From the NCBI GenBank assembly GCA_019931185.1, contig JAINDK010000076.1:1-50846 (forward strand): a stretch of DNA of 50,846 bases. The letters are read 5' to 3'. The DNA comes from Bryobacter sp. CoA8 C33 (GTDB lineage Bacteria; Acidobacteriota; Terriglobia; Bryobacterales; Bryobacteraceae). Below, one piece after another: positions 12,808-36,728 of this stretch (position 1 is its first letter; each line of letters begins with the position of its first letter). The translations under genes were made by a program, and so were the position numbers. The notes under the pieces are model-generated. The model was not told the origin of the DNA and searched no databases. It saw only the letters and a program-made list of their open reading frames with translations.

Positions 12808-14199
12808 ATGCTGCCTGTTCTGCTGATGTTGCTGGCCCAGTCTCCGGACTGGTCGCGTGTGGATGCGGAAACGATGCGCCATTTTACGGCGCTGGTTCAG
12901 ATCAATAGTTCAGACCCCGGGGGCAGCGAGAAGCCCGTTGTGGATTATCTGAAGAAGGTATTCGATCAGGAGGGGATCGAATCGAAGATCTTCACGATGG
13001 ACAATCTGGCGGACCCGGCGGTGGTGCGTCCGAACCTGATCGCGCGGCTGAAGGGTAGCGGGAAGAAGAAGCCGATATTGATTGTGGGCCATAGCGACAC
13101 GGTGAACGTGGATCCGAAGAAGTGGACGTATGGGCCGTTTTCGGCGCACCGGGAGGGGGGCTATGTGTATGGCCGGGGAACGGTGGACGACAAGGACAAT
13201 CTAGCGGCGGCGCTGATGACGATGCTGTTGTTGAAGAGGCAGAAAGTGCCGCTGGACCGGGATGTGATCTTTTTGTCGGAGGCGGGCGAGGAGGGGGCGC
13301 CGGTGTTGGGGGCCGCTTATCTGGTGCGGGAGCACTGGCCGGAAATCGAGGCGGAATACTGTTTTGCCGAGGGGGGCTCGGCGGTGCGGACGGATGGGCG
13401 GCTGCGCTTTGTTTCGGTGCAGACGACGGAGAAGATCCCGTTTGGCATCCGTCTGGTGGCCAATGGGGTAGCGGGGCATGGGTCGGTGCCGTTGCGGTCG
13501 AATGCGGTGGTGCACATTGCACAGGCGGTGGCGAAGGTGGCGGCCTGGCAGCCGCCGATGAGGCTGAACGACACGACGCGGACATATTTCGAGAGGTTGG
13601 CGACGGTATCCACGCCCGAGGAGCGGGAGCGGTATAACGGGCTGCTGCACCCGGAGAAGACCGATGCCATTCAGGAGTATCTGGCGATCCACGAGCCGCG
13701 GCACAACTCGATGTTGCGGACTTCGATTTCGCCGAACATCATCAAGGCCGGCTACCGGCGCAATGTGATTCCCTCGGAGGCTGAAGCATCGCTTGATATT
13801 CGCGTGCTGCCGGACGAGGACTTGCCGAAGTTTATCGAGATGTTGCGGAGCGTGATCCATGATCCGGCGGTGAAGATCCAGCGCGATGGGGGCTCGGCGC
13901 GGCCGGGGGCGGCGCCATCGCGGCTGGATAACGAAGCATTCCGGACGATAGAGCGGGTGGCGGGACGGCAATATCCGGGCGTGCCGGTGTTGCCGAGCAT
14001 GTCGACGGGGGCGACGGATATGGCGTTTTTCCGGGCCAAAGGGATGCAGTGTTATGGGATCGGGCCGATGGTCGATTCCGAGGATGGACCGAAAGGGTTT
14101 GGGGCGCACTCGGACCAGGAGCGGATCCTCGAGAGTGCGCTGCACACCTTTGTGCGCTTCCACTACGAACTGGTGGACGAGATGGCGCGGGCGAAGTAG
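12808..14199 (+). CDS. M20/M28-type metallopeptidase (M20 dipeptidase/carboxypeptidase family)
   Basis: A 463-residue zinc peptidase of the M20 family with a short signal-like N-terminus (MLPVLLMLLAQS). Metal-site motifs are in the expected order: HSDTV (H95, D97), GRGTVDDKD (residues 122-130), catalytic Glu in EAGEE (158-162), AEGG near residue 188, and a C-terminal metal His in FGAHSDQE. Length and order fit M20 carboxypeptidase/dipeptidase or acetyl-lysine deacetylase relatives, so the substrate is a peptide or an N-acyl amino acid. It starts 20 bases after the Gfo/Idh stop and may be cotranscribed. Its stop codon abuts the stop of the convergent selenoprotein gene without spacer. Confidence 0.92.
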   Translation: MLPVLLMLLAQSPDWSRVDAETMRHFTALVQINSSDPGGSEKPVVDYLKKVFDQEGIESKIFTMDNLADPAVVRPNLIARLKGSGKKKPILIVGHSDTVNVDPKKWTYGPFSAHREGGYVYGRGTVDDKDNLAAALMTMLLLKRQKVPLDRDVIFLSEAGEEGAPVLGAAYLVREHWPEIEAEYCFAEGGSAVRTDGRLRFVSVQTTEKIPFGIRLVANGVAGHGSVPLRSNAVVHIAQAVAKVAAWQPPMRLNDTTRTYFERLATVSTPEERERYNGLLHPEKTDAIQEYLAIHEPRHNSMLRTSISPNIIKAGYRRNVIPSEAEASLDIRVLPDEDLPKFIEMLRSVIHDPAVKIQRDGGSARPGAAPSRLDNEAFRTIERVAGRQYPGVPVLPSMSTGATDMAFFRAKGMQCYGIGPMVDSEDGPKGFGAHSDQERILESALHTFVRFHYELVDEMARAK

Positions 14200-14541
14200 C
14201 TAGGCGAGCACTTTGGCGTAGGTAGCTTCGTCGAAGCCGATGACGATGGTTTTGCCTTTGCGCCAGGCCGGGGCGCGGAGGTTGCCGGTGGGGCCGAGGG
14301 CAACGGCCAGGATGTCATCGAGGGGAGCGGACTTCGTTTTGAAGTGAAGGACATTTTTGCCCTTGACGACGTAGACCTCCTGGGCCGCGGAGAGGAGGGC
14401 AGCCGCTTCGTCGCGGCCGAAAGCCTTTTTCTTGGCATTTTCTTCGGTCAGTACAGTCACATAGTTCTTCGCAAGAAACTCCTGCGTCTTGGCGCAGGTC
14501 GTTCAACCCGGGCGATGGTAGTTCCAGTCGAGTTTGCTCAT
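14200..14541 (-). CDS. ArsC-family selenoprotein with in-frame UGA (Sec13)
   Basis: A thioredoxin-fold protein of 113 residues, read through one in-frame TGA. A conventional call would start at the GTG at 14460 and lose the N-terminal beta strand and redox motif. Upstream the frame continues as KLDWNYHRPG-(TGA)-TTCAKTQEFLAKNY to an ATG at 14539-14541. The TGA lies at 14503-14505 and yields a U-T-T-C motif (Sec13, Cys16), where relatives have Cys or Sec. The fold and length fit the ArsC/Spx-like group, known to contain selenoproteins. Downstream hairpins (14481-14498, 14465-14477) are candidate SECIS elements. A selA gene lies at 35430-36728. It is convergent with the M20 gene (no gap) and divergent from the hydrolase-propeller gene. 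The arsenate-reductase activity is unproven; a thiol/selenol redox role is inferred. Confidence 0.87.
14465..14505 (-). promoter_or_regulatory. Selenocysteine UGA with candidate bacterial SECIS hairpins
   Basis: The UGA is at 14503-14505. Four bases later a six-pair stem CCTGCG/CGCAGG with hexaloop CCAAGA forms (14481-14498). A second stem TTCTT/AAGAA with loop GCG (14465-14477) has its loop about 30 bases beyond the UGA, within the range usual for bacterial SECIS loops and starting with G. Bacterial SECIS elements lie inside the coding region just after the UGA. Which hairpin SelB would bind cannot be settled by eye. Confidence 0.5.
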
Positions 14542-14567
14542 TCTAAGGAATGATATGCTCCCCACTG

Positions 14568-16183
14568 ATGCTCAGACGCATTTTTGCTTTTTCGCTTGTG
14601 GCCGCGGCCCTCTCCGCGCAGACCGTGATACCGAATGTGGAGTACTCGAATGTGGGTGCTCGCATGGAGATGGACATCGTCAAGCCGGACCATGCCAGTG
14701 GGACGTTGCCGGCGGTTTTGTTCGTGCATGGCGGGGGTTTCCGCCGGGGCACGCGGCAGGGCTATCTGGAACTGGCGAAGAAGCTGGCGGGGCGTGGGTA
14801 TGTGACGGCGACGGCGAGCTACCGGCTGGCGCCGCGGCACCAATTTCCGGCGGCAGTGGAGGATGTGAAGGCGGCGGTGCGCCATTTGCGGGCGAACGCG
14901 GGGCGCTACGGGATTGATCCGTCGCGCATTGCGGCCTGGGGCGGCAGCGCGGGCGGGCACCTGGTGCTGATGCTGGGGCTGACGGCGGGAGTGGCGGAGT
15001 TTGAGGGGACGGGGCCGAACCGGGAATTTTCAAGCGCGGTGCAGGCGGTGATCAATTACTACGGGCCGACGGATTTCACGCAGAGCTATTCGAAGAGCGT
15101 GGATGCGGCCGAGGTGTTGCCGCTGTGGCTGGGGGGGCACCTGGACCAAAACCGGCGCATCCATCAGAAGGCGAGCCCGCTGAACTGGGTGACGCCGGCG
15201 GCGGCGCCGATCCTTTCCGTGCACGGCACGAAAGATGCCTATGTGGCCTACGAGCATAGCGTGATGCTGACGGAGAGGCTGCTGGCGGCGGGGGTGGAGG
15301 CGGAGCTCGAGACGATTTCGGGGGCGGGGCATGGCTTCAAGGGGGCGGACGCGGAACGGGCCGAGGCGGTATCGTTCGCGTTTCTCGACCGTTATCTGAA
15401 GGCGAGCCCGGCGCAGACGAAGCTGCTGTTGAGCGACCACGGGCCGCGGGGTGAGATTCTGGCGATGGACTGGCCTTCGGGCAAGATCCATTGGACGCGC
15501 AAGAACGGGCGCGGGCATGATGTGCAGAGCCTGCCGAACGGGCATGTGCTGTTCACGATCGCGCCGGAGAAGCGGGTGGTGGAGCTTGATGAGAAGCAGC
15601 AGGAAGTGTGGTCTTATTCCGAAGGGCTCGAGCATCCGTTGAGTGCACAGCGGCTGGGGAATGGGAATACTCTGATCGGGGATGCGCGGACGGGGAAGCT
15701 GATTGAGGTGACGCCGGACAAGCGGGTGGTGTGGAAGTATGAAGGCGCGCATCTGGCGAATATGCGGATGCGCAACAGCCGGCGCACGGCGGCGGGGACG
15801 ACGCTGATTGCCGAGGAGGCGATTGCGAAGATCCATGAGGTGGATGCGAGCGGGAAGGAGATCTGGAGCTGGCAGGCGCCGAACGGGGCGAATCGGCGGG
15901 CCTATCAGGCGCTGCGGCTTGAGAACGGCAACACGCTGATCAGCATCAGTGACCCGGGAGAAGTGGTGGAGGTGCGGCCCGACGGGACGGTGGCGCGCTC
16001 GATTGCCGGGGCGAAGATGGATCTGCAGTTTGGCTGGGCGAGCGGGATGGCGCTGATGCCGAACGGGAACCTGCTGATTGTTGACTACACGGGGCGGCGC
16101 GTCGTGGAAGTAGACACGAAGGGCAAGCTGGTGAACGAAATGCGGACGGGCGAGCGAACGTTTGCGAGCCTGGACGTGGTGCG

Positions 16184-16187
<4 letters not shown>
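14568..16187 (+). CDS. Alpha/beta-hydrolase (esterase-like) fused to a C-terminal beta-propeller
   Basis: About 539 residues with two parts. After a signal peptide ([17 protein letters not shown]), residues ~20-280 form an alpha/beta-hydrolase of the BD-FAE/hormone-sensitive-lipase type: oxyanion motif HGGGF, nucleophile elbow GGSAGGH, catalytic Asp region HGTKDAYV and His in GAGHGF. Residues ~290-539 repeat a [16 protein letters not shown]/VxExxPDGxV pattern typical of a PQQ-like or arylsulfotransferase-like beta-propeller. A carbohydrate esterase with a binding propeller is plausible. The start at ATG 14568 is chosen for the signal peptide; ATG 14550 is in frame and possible. Its stop shares a CTAG palindrome with the convergent DUF1501 stop (4-bp overlap). 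Confidence 0.88.
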
Positions 16188-34890: not shown

Positions 34891-35448
34891 ATGATTTCCG
34901 CAACACAAATTCGCCCGGGCATGGTCATCAAGTTCAACGGCGAACTCTACTCCGTATTTACGATGACTCACCGCACCCCGGGTAACCTCCGTGGCTTCGT
35001 TCAGGTAAAGATGCGCAACCTGCGCAGCGGCTCGATGAATGAACACCGCTTCGCCTCTGAAGACAAGGTCGAAAAGGCCATGATGGACGAGCAGAAGATG
35101 GAGTACATGTACAAGGACACGGAGTTCTTCTACTTCATGAACACGGAGAACTACGAGCAGATTCAGCTTTCGGCCGAGTTTATTGGCGACGCGGCGAACT
35201 ACATGATCGACAACCTGCCGGTGACGGTGACCTTCTACGAGGGCAAGCCGATCAGCGTTGAGCCGCCGGCGACGGTGGACCTGAAAATTATCGAGACGGA
35301 GCCAGGGCTGAAGGGGGCGAGCGTGTCGAATGTCGGCAAGCAGGCGACGCTTGAGACGGGACTTGTCGTCACGGTGCCGCAGTTTATCGAGCAGGGTGAA
35401 AAGATCCGCGTCAATACGGCGGAAGGCACCTACATGGAGCGGGCGTAG
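34891..35448 (+). CDS. efp: Translation elongation factor P
   Basis: A 185-residue three-domain protein that rescues ribosomes stalled at polyproline stretches. The N-terminal KOW-like domain (ISATQIRPGMVIKFNGELYSV), the OB domain (MEYMYKDTEFFYFMNTENYEQ; EFIGDAANYMIDNLPVTVTF) and the C-terminal OB domain (IETEPGLKGASVSNVGKQATLETG) all fit EF-P. At the loop tip that carries the modified Lys34 (E. coli) or Arg32 (Pseudomonas), the sequence is HRTPGNLRGF, so the tip residue is Asn32. This departs from the classic modified forms. The ATG at 34891 has only a weak ribosome-binding site. The end overlaps the convergent selA by 19 bases. Modifying enzymes are not seen nearby. Confidence 0.97.
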   Translation: MISATQIRPGMVIKFNGELYSVFTMTHRTPGNLRGFVQVKMRNLRSGSMNEHRFASEDKVEKAMMDEQKMEYMYKDTEFFYFMNTENYEQIQLSAEFIGDAANYMIDNLPVTVTFYEGKPISVEPPATVDLKIIETEPGLKGASVSNVGKQATLETGLVVTVPQFIEQGEKIRVNTAEGTYMERA

Positions 35449-36728
35449 CTTTCGATCAACCCGGCGACGGTATCATCGTCGGCGGGGAAAATGGTCCGCG
35501 GGTCCAGTAACAGCTCATCGTTTTCAATACGGGCCACCACCGGGGTGGAGGCGGTACGGAGGTATCGCTCCAGGCGGCGCGCATCGCCGGGAATCGCCAC
35601 AAGCCATGTTGGAATGCTTTGATCGGGAGTCGAACCGCCGCCGATTACACTGCGCCCTTGCCTGACGAGGGCCCGGCCGATGCGGGCGGCGATGTTTCTC
35701 GCGCGCGTCTCGATTTCGGCAAGCGGCATGGAGATCATGCGCGGCCCGGGCAAGGCGTGGTAATCGCCTCTAGCCAGGGCGCGAAGCGCCTCGGACAGAG
35801 CCTCGACCGCCAGTTTATCGAGACGGAAGGCGCGGTACATGGGATGGCGGCGGATTCGGGCGACCAGTTCCGCATCGCCCGCGATAATGCCGGCCTGCGG
35901 TCCGCCGAGCAGCTTGTCGCAGGAGAAAGAGACGAGATGGACACCGGCGCGCAGGCTATCGCCCACCAGCGGCTCCTCGATTCCGTAGGCCCGCAAATCG
36001 AGGAGACAGCCGCTGCCCAGATCCTCATAGCAGGGAAGCGAGTGTTCCCGGGCCAGCCGGGCGAGATCGGCTAAGGAGGGCTTGCCGACAAAGCCGGTCT
36101 GATGAAAGTTGCTCGGGTGAACGCGCATGATCAACTTAGTGCCCTCGCCGATGGCCTTGCGGTAATCCTCGATGTGGGTGCGATTGGTCGCGCCAACCTC
36201 GCGGAGTACGGCGCCGCTTTCCTGCATGATGTCGGGGATTCGGAAGCCATCGCCGATTTCGACCAACTCGCCTCGGCTGACGAGGACTTCCCCGCCCGTG
36301 GCGAGGGCACGCAGAACCAGGTAGGTGGCCGCGGCGTTGTTGTTAACGGCGATGGCCGGCACGCCCAACAGTTGCTGCAGCAGGGGCGCCAAGTGGACAT
36401 CGCGCTTGCCACGCTTGCCGGTTTGGAGATCGTATTCGAGGTTGGAATAGCCTTCGACGGGATGGAATTCCTTGAGAGGCGCGCGGCCGAGGTTGGTGTG
36501 CAAGACGACGCCGGTGGCGTTGATCACGCGGCGGAGCGAGGGGCGGCGCAGCGCCTCCACACGCCGGTGGATTTCGGCTTCAATTTCCTCAACCGGCAAA
36601 TCGAGAGAACGCACAGCCTCGAGTACCGCGCGGGTGATCGAAGTAAGCCGCGGGCGCGCGATGTCTTCATAGCGCGAGCCGAGGCTCCGCAGCAAGAGAT
36701 CGACGGAAGGGATCTCCCTCCGCTGCAC
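35430..36728 (-). CDS. selA: L-seryl-tRNA(Sec) selenium transferase SelA
   Basis: A 432-residue PLP enzyme that converts Ser-tRNA(Sec) to Sec-tRNA(Sec) with selenophosphate. Seen: N-terminal IPSVDLLLRSL, the family signature RRVINATGVVLHTNLGRAPL, NNNAAATYLVLRAL, SRGELVEIGDGFRIPDIMQESGAVLREVGATNRT, HPSNFHQTGFVG, the PLP lysine K272 in SFSCDKLLGGPQAG, and a C-terminal IENDELLLDPRTI. The start is GTG 36728, sharing its G with the stop of the upstream PIG-L gene (TAGTG), so it is translated as the last gene of a four-gene leftward operon. selB, selC and selD are not in the window. Its presence supports the UGA reading at 14505. Confidence 0.95.
   Translation of the reverse strand: MQRREIPSVDLLLRSLGSRYEDIARPRLTSITRAVLEAVRSLDLPVEEIEAEIHRRVEALRRPSLRRVINATGVVLHTNLGRAPLKEFHPVEGYSNLEYDLQTGKRGKRDVHLAPLLQQLLGVPAIAVNNNAAATYLVLRALATGGEVLVSRGELVEIGDGFRIPDIMQESGAVLREVGATNRTHIEDYRKAIGEGTKLIMRVHPSNFHQTGFVGKPSLADLARLAREHSLPCYEDLGSGCLLDLRAYGIEEPLVGDSLRAGVHLVSFSCDKLLGGPQAGIIAGDAELVARIRRHPMYRAFRLDKLAVEALSEALRALARGDYHALPGPRMISMPLAEIETRARNIAARIGRALVRQGRSVIGGGSTPDQSIPTWLVAIPGDARRLERYLRTASTPVVARIENDELLLDPRTIFPADDDTVAGLIESYARSM

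Follow-up and report, generated by a model that had tools for sequence, protein, structure and literature searches.

We propose that the UGA at codon 13 of a short minus-strand gene of Bryobacter sp. CoA8 C33 is very probably read as selenocysteine in a small bacterial redox protein. The gene occupies positions 14200 to 14541 of the window, by which we mean the whole stretch of 50,846 nucleotides that was analysed. On comparative grounds, its product is almost certainly a protein of 113 residues that has a thioredoxin fold, belongs to the ArsC/Spx superfamily and bears a Sec-Thr-Thr-Cys redox site, the selenocysteine being inserted by way of SelB and a hairpin in the message. The gene call draws on the translation, on a match to the family model NF041106 and on homologues, and the assignment of the TGA on its retention in homologues together with the Sec machinery of the genome.

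Translated along the minus strand from an ATG at 14541 to a TAG stop ending at 14200, the frame reads MSKLDWNYHRPG-U-TTCAKTQEFL..., 113 residues with a single TGA at 14503-14505. The initial annotation had described this leftward frame, with its ATG start and the sequence HRPG-U-TTC across the TGA, and the translation agrees with it in every particular. The redox site of the read-through protein is U13-T-T-C16 (i.e., UxxC), in which the partner of Sec13, Cys16, is encoded at 14494-14496. Without read-through, the standard-code list of open reading frames offers in the same frame only an 86-residue product from a GTG at 14460; as had been anticipated, the first 27 codons are lost if the ORF is taken from there, and a plain ORF call thereby drops the catalytic residue of this ArsC/Spx-like selenoprotein. 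A Shine-Dalgarno-like GGGGAG ends 16 nt 5' of the ATG, a spacing longer than usual. The neighbors of the gene, both on the plus strand, are an alpha/beta hydrolase gene at 14550-16187, to which it stands head to head, and an M20 peptidase gene at 12808-14199, to which it stands tail to tail.

In the mechanism that we envisage, a ribosome would reach the UGA at codon 13, SelB carrying Sec-tRNA(UCA) would bind the hairpin 20-36 nt downstream, which has GU in its loop, and selenocysteine would be inserted at the UGA in place of termination. The finished protein would act as a selenol/thiol oxidoreductase, in which Sec13 attacks and Cys16 resolves.

Family, fold and probable function

On the NCBIfam model NF041106, "ArsC family (seleno)protein", the read-through protein scores 120.9 bits, where 85 is the cut-off, and the match spans the entire model (positions 1-107 of 107). 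The 86-residue piece that follows the TGA scores 77.6 bits, below that cut-off, and enters the model at position 27. The full-length match is thus obtained only with the TGA read through, and this counts for the selenocysteine reading. The gene is a further sequence of an already catalogued selenoprotein family, and the kind itself is not new, since a curated model exists and reviews list the family. Compared with NF041106 (ArsC_rel_Se_1) we find the same full-length match over the cut-off, the same UxxC and nothing of substance that differs; the case leaves existing knowledge of recoding unchanged.

As far as the portions of the cited papers available to us go, Table 1 of a 2026 review (PMC13188914) lists NF041106 as "Arsenate reductase-like protein" with UxxC, apparently under those predicted with high confidence, and cites for it reference 61, which is PMC2398784. 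An Arsenate reductase-like protein with UxxC also appears, under COG1393, in PMC9312934. The Global Ocean Sampling selenoproteome (PMC2398784) contains "Arsenate reductase 2" (cd03032, UxxC, 42 sequences), with the figure 238, presumably that of Cys homologues, beside the Sec counts; from the motif we infer that this is the entry that PMC13188914 cites for NF041106. It shares UxxC with the window protein, but its sequences are marine and metagenomic, and the likeness is one of motif and citation only. The Sargasso Sea study (PMC1088965) described an "Arsenate reductase" selenoprotein (14 sequences, COG1393) that likewise has Sec in its redox motif, there UxxS rather than the UxxC seen here, and the reviews PMC13188914 and PMC9312934 keep this UxxS protein as an entry separate from the UxxC family. 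ArsC-like selenoproteins in bacteria are also noted in PMC1794560, which assigns three selenoprotein families and four selenoproteins to Acidobacteria. In the portion of PMC4807772 available to us we found no statement on the NF041106 family.

The predicted structure of the selenoprotein, made from a three-row alignment, is poor (mean pLDDT 50.9), so that the fold is taken from sequence profiles only. A profile built from 17 TGA-containing sequences and two Cys relatives (19 in all) finds Spx as its best solved relatives (PDB 1z3e and 3gfk, E about 2e-12). The similarity extends over positions 5-105 of 107 and places the CxxC of Spx at the UxxC site, with Cys in Spx where the window protein has Sec. 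This alignment would suit an Spx-like regulator under redox control, acting on RNA polymerase by binding to it and operated by a Sec-Cys switch. We consider such a role unlikely, however, because the read-through protein remains far below the cut-offs of the Spx models, with 18 of 75.05 bits for TIGR01617 and 20.2 of 123 bits for NF002459.

Slightly less credible again, and in our judgment very unlikely, is that the protein is a genuine arsenate reductase, dependent on glutaredoxin, in a Sec version. Pfam ArsC does match it, at 17.4 bits and so below the cut-off of 24, and the profile search of solved structures reaches putative arsenate reductases (2m46 at E 2e-9, 2kok at 2.6e-5 and 3fz4 at 0.0025) as well as entries named arsenate reductase (e.g., 1i9d and 1s3d, E 0.03-0.06). 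However, the arsenate reductase model TIGR00014 is absent among the NCBIfam matches of the read-through protein at E up to 1, and there are no ars families among the 20 flanking ORFs scanned around homologous genes, which were picked by length, one or two per locus, and five of which have no Pfam match at E 1e-8. Furthermore, 17 of 17 aligned family members have RAP where two more distant ArsC/Spx-like relatives, L012 and L013, have KRP, and in E. coli ArsC we take the arginine that precedes the proline of this site to help bind arsenate. The exchange of KRP for RAP would fit a changed substrate. The designation "ArsC-family" given to the protein at the outset thus stands as the name of a fold family but not as arsenate reductase, TIGR00014 being unmatched and Spx supplying the best solved relatives; judged by sequence, "ArsC" is here a fold-family name.

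A thioredoxin-fold oxidoreductase with a UxxC site would be the best reading of function, ahead of arsenate reduction or transcriptional regulation, and within it we lean toward a reductase of the disulfide or peroxide type that is linked to thioredoxin or glutaredoxin. The homologues of the NF041106 family assembled here are material for substrate tests. Gene neighborhood was considered as a guide to function and rejected: the hydrolase and M20 peptidase flanks recur in a genus mate (L003), but neither is found among the flanking ORFs scanned at 11 other loci.

Conservation of the UGA in the phylum

Among 101 genomes (its own and 100 relatives) 14 had a match to the gene, 11 of them, the own genome included, at E 5e-24 or better. 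Each of these 11 close homologues, own gene counted, contains exactly one TGA, and the other three matches (E 1.5e-6 to 2.6e-4) contain none. A search of 396 genomes of the phylum with NF041106 returned 84 matches in 83 genomes. Twenty-eight lie above the cut-off and nine more at 53.7-84.3 bits, and all 37 matches of at least 53 bits, again counting the own gene, have exactly one TGA. At 50.4 bits or below there are 47 further matches, of which 37 are stop-free, nine have one TGA and one has TAG; L070, the only stop-free match of the phylum search that was read, has Cys.

We compared 45 loci, namely the 14 from the 101-genome set, two named records and 29 of the other 36 strong phylum matches. 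The TGA is present in 42 of the 45, where its position never varies and the surrounding stretch resembles DWxYHRxGUTSC. The part of this stretch that precedes the TGA (like DWxYHRxG) is conserved in all 42 of these loci, every one of which begins 5' of the TGA. The initial annotation had called for Cys or Sec homologues at residue 13, and the alignment supplies both: the residue is U in the 42 family homologues and Cys in the more distant L012 and L013. No Cys form above 53 bits was seen in the 101-genome and 396-genome searches. Cys forms of the family likely exist elsewhere, given the 238 presumed Cys homologues of Arsenate reductase 2 in the part of PMC2398784 available to us. Cys16 is likewise identified from the alignment; one family homologue, L038, has UTSS, with Ser in place of the resolving Cys.

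These homologues bear on where the gene begins. The ORF from GTG 14460 is what the standard code lists, and a start there would yield an 86-residue protein without a redox site, the frame upstream being accidental. Such a start is extremely improbable, and we reject it because the homologues contradict it: they conserve the stretch before the TGA, and the short form, at 77.6 bits, falls under the family cut-off of 85. The earlier argument that a frame running on across the TGA is not a chance event is borne out by the TGA lying at the same place across the phylum and by codons 2-12, in which most changes within the genus are silent (51 codon differences synonymous, 14 non-synonymous, in 15 non-independent pairs from six sequences). 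A pseudogene, or a sequencing error of TGC or TGT to TGA, has next to no probability and is likewise rejected on the homologues, for although a single base change would restore a Cys codon, the TGA recurs in homologues of 46 other genomes (both searches pooled; in the same position wherever the locus was read) and the SECIS-like hairpin is conserved.

Finally, we note a second set of genes with a TGA. In nine phylum genomes, weak matches to NF041106 (L061-L069, 21.8-30.9 bits) contain a TGA and read K[PS][TS]-U-T[ST]C, and a hairpin may form 3' of the UGA. In the four that were scanned, TIGR01617 is the best model, with two above and two below its cut-off. These genes look like a Sec form of an Spx/MgsR-like group that is distinct from NF041106.

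A SECIS-like hairpin downstream of the UGA

With the U of the UGA numbered 1, bases 20-25 of the window gene pair with bases 31-36 around the loop AGUUU (bases 26-30), and A26-U30 is a possible seventh pair. This bacterial SECIS-like hairpin, with a stem of 6-7 bp, lies at 14486-14470 on the minus strand, the GU of its apical loop being at 14479-14478, and folded alone it has an energy of -8.2 kcal/mol. Hairpins had been claimed within a few dozen bases of the UGA, and this one falls inside the stretch singled out for it. Rfam at its gathering score finds one tRNA only in the window and nothing at the hairpin.

The family is present in scattered genomes of the phylum, and the hairpin is well conserved in it. 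All six pairs are possible in 26 of 26 homologues that share the register of the window gene, as counted from ungapped rows. Compensatory, two-sided changes occur at pair 20-36 (CG/TA), pair 21-35 (GC/TA/CG) and pair 23-33 (AT/GC); at pair 21-35 in L032 and L039, codon 24 changes from Ala to Glu or Gly, and a base of codon 19 changes to match. When codons were resampled synonymously, using the codon usage of eight window genes as one codon table for all species, a mean of 0.39 of 26 sequences was fully paired, with a maximum of 4 in 5000 resamplings, versus the 26 of 26 observed; the homologues are related and their kinship lies outside this null, and registers and groups were picked after the folds had been viewed. 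For the window gene alone, the same kind of resampling gives the hairpin by chance with P = 0.013.

Other homologues vary the arrangement. Fourteen, L042-L055, of which 13 are almost the same sequence, have a six-pair stem whose register is longer by one base, with the loop AAGUUxxU. In L056 and L057 a five-pair stem, 17-21 with 27-31, can be drawn by eye around a loop CGUGA or CGUGC, and RNAfold recovers all five pairs in the former and four in the latter. Every one of the 42 homologues has GU in its loop.

Folding from the UGA to base 48 yields the SECIS hairpin as the minimum-energy structure in 13 of the 26 and in 14 of the 14 with the second register. In 11 of the 26, including the window gene, a stem between bases 8-13 and 20-25 (at least four pairs) is predicted; the window gene so folded reaches -12.2 kcal/mol over its full 40-48 nt, and the SECIS hairpin is not its minimum-energy structure. 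All six pairs of this upstream stem are possible in 6 of the 26. If folding begins at base 13, the SECIS hairpin appears in 25 of 26, and if it begins at base 16, with the first 15 nt omitted, in 26 of 26, in 14 of 14 of the second register and in L056 but not L057. While the UGA occupies its A site, a ribosome should shield roughly the first dozen bases, and the upstream stem therefore need not block formation of the SECIS hairpin. That the message carries a built-in switch, in which the ribosome at the UGA covers the 8-13 arm and frees the SECIS hairpin when it is needed, strikes us as distinctly improbable.

Selenocysteine machinery of the genome and its relatives

The selA gene, for selenocysteine synthase, had been reported in the same window and is found at 35430-36728 on the minus strand, where TIGR00474 matches 35457-36719 with 467.5 bits (cut-off 267.9). 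The search for selB, selC and selD that was then suggested located all three in the genome. In profile searches, selB scores 354.4 bits (cut-off 242.25) and selD 350.8 bits (cut-off 125), the latter with one in-frame TGA, and tRNA-Sec (selC) scores 73.4 bits (gathering 47) and is called tRNA-SeC with anticodon tca by ARAGORN. Thus, on each of three points named beforehand as able to overturn selenocysteine (where the homologues start, what they have at position 13, and whether the sel genes are present), the result supports it.

Across the 101 genomes, selB and selD, whose profiles match related proteins in every one, were counted only over the curated cut-off. tRNA-Sec was counted only above 58 bits; the many matches near 50 bits were taken as other tRNAs on the basis of a control in which 5 of 14 named genomes came out above the cut-off. 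So counted, each component occurs in 9 of the 11 gene-bearing genomes: selB in all except G007 and G010, tRNA-Sec in all except G005 and G007, and selD in all except G005 and G010. At least one of the three is present in each of the 11, and G005, G007 and G010 are 88%, 79% and 92% complete, respectively, and in many contigs.

Two members of the genus have no copy of the gene. In G006 (98% complete, 4 contigs) the selenoprotein gene, selB and selD over cut-off and tRNA-Sec above 58 bits are all absent. G002, a 620-contig draft, has selB (model positions 1-345 only), selD and tRNA-Sec, and no match to the selenoprotein gene. Taken with the gene-bearing genomes, these two indicate that the gene is a feature of Sec-decoding genomes, though not of every one. 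Comparison of G006 with G002 makes it look as if Sec decoding was lost within the genus.

Finally, the selD of the own genome (L059, C110) is itself a selenoprotein gene, with its TGA in AAGUASK followed by a strong hairpin with GU in the loop, and this TGA and hairpin serve as a positive control for the arrangement of Sec decoding.
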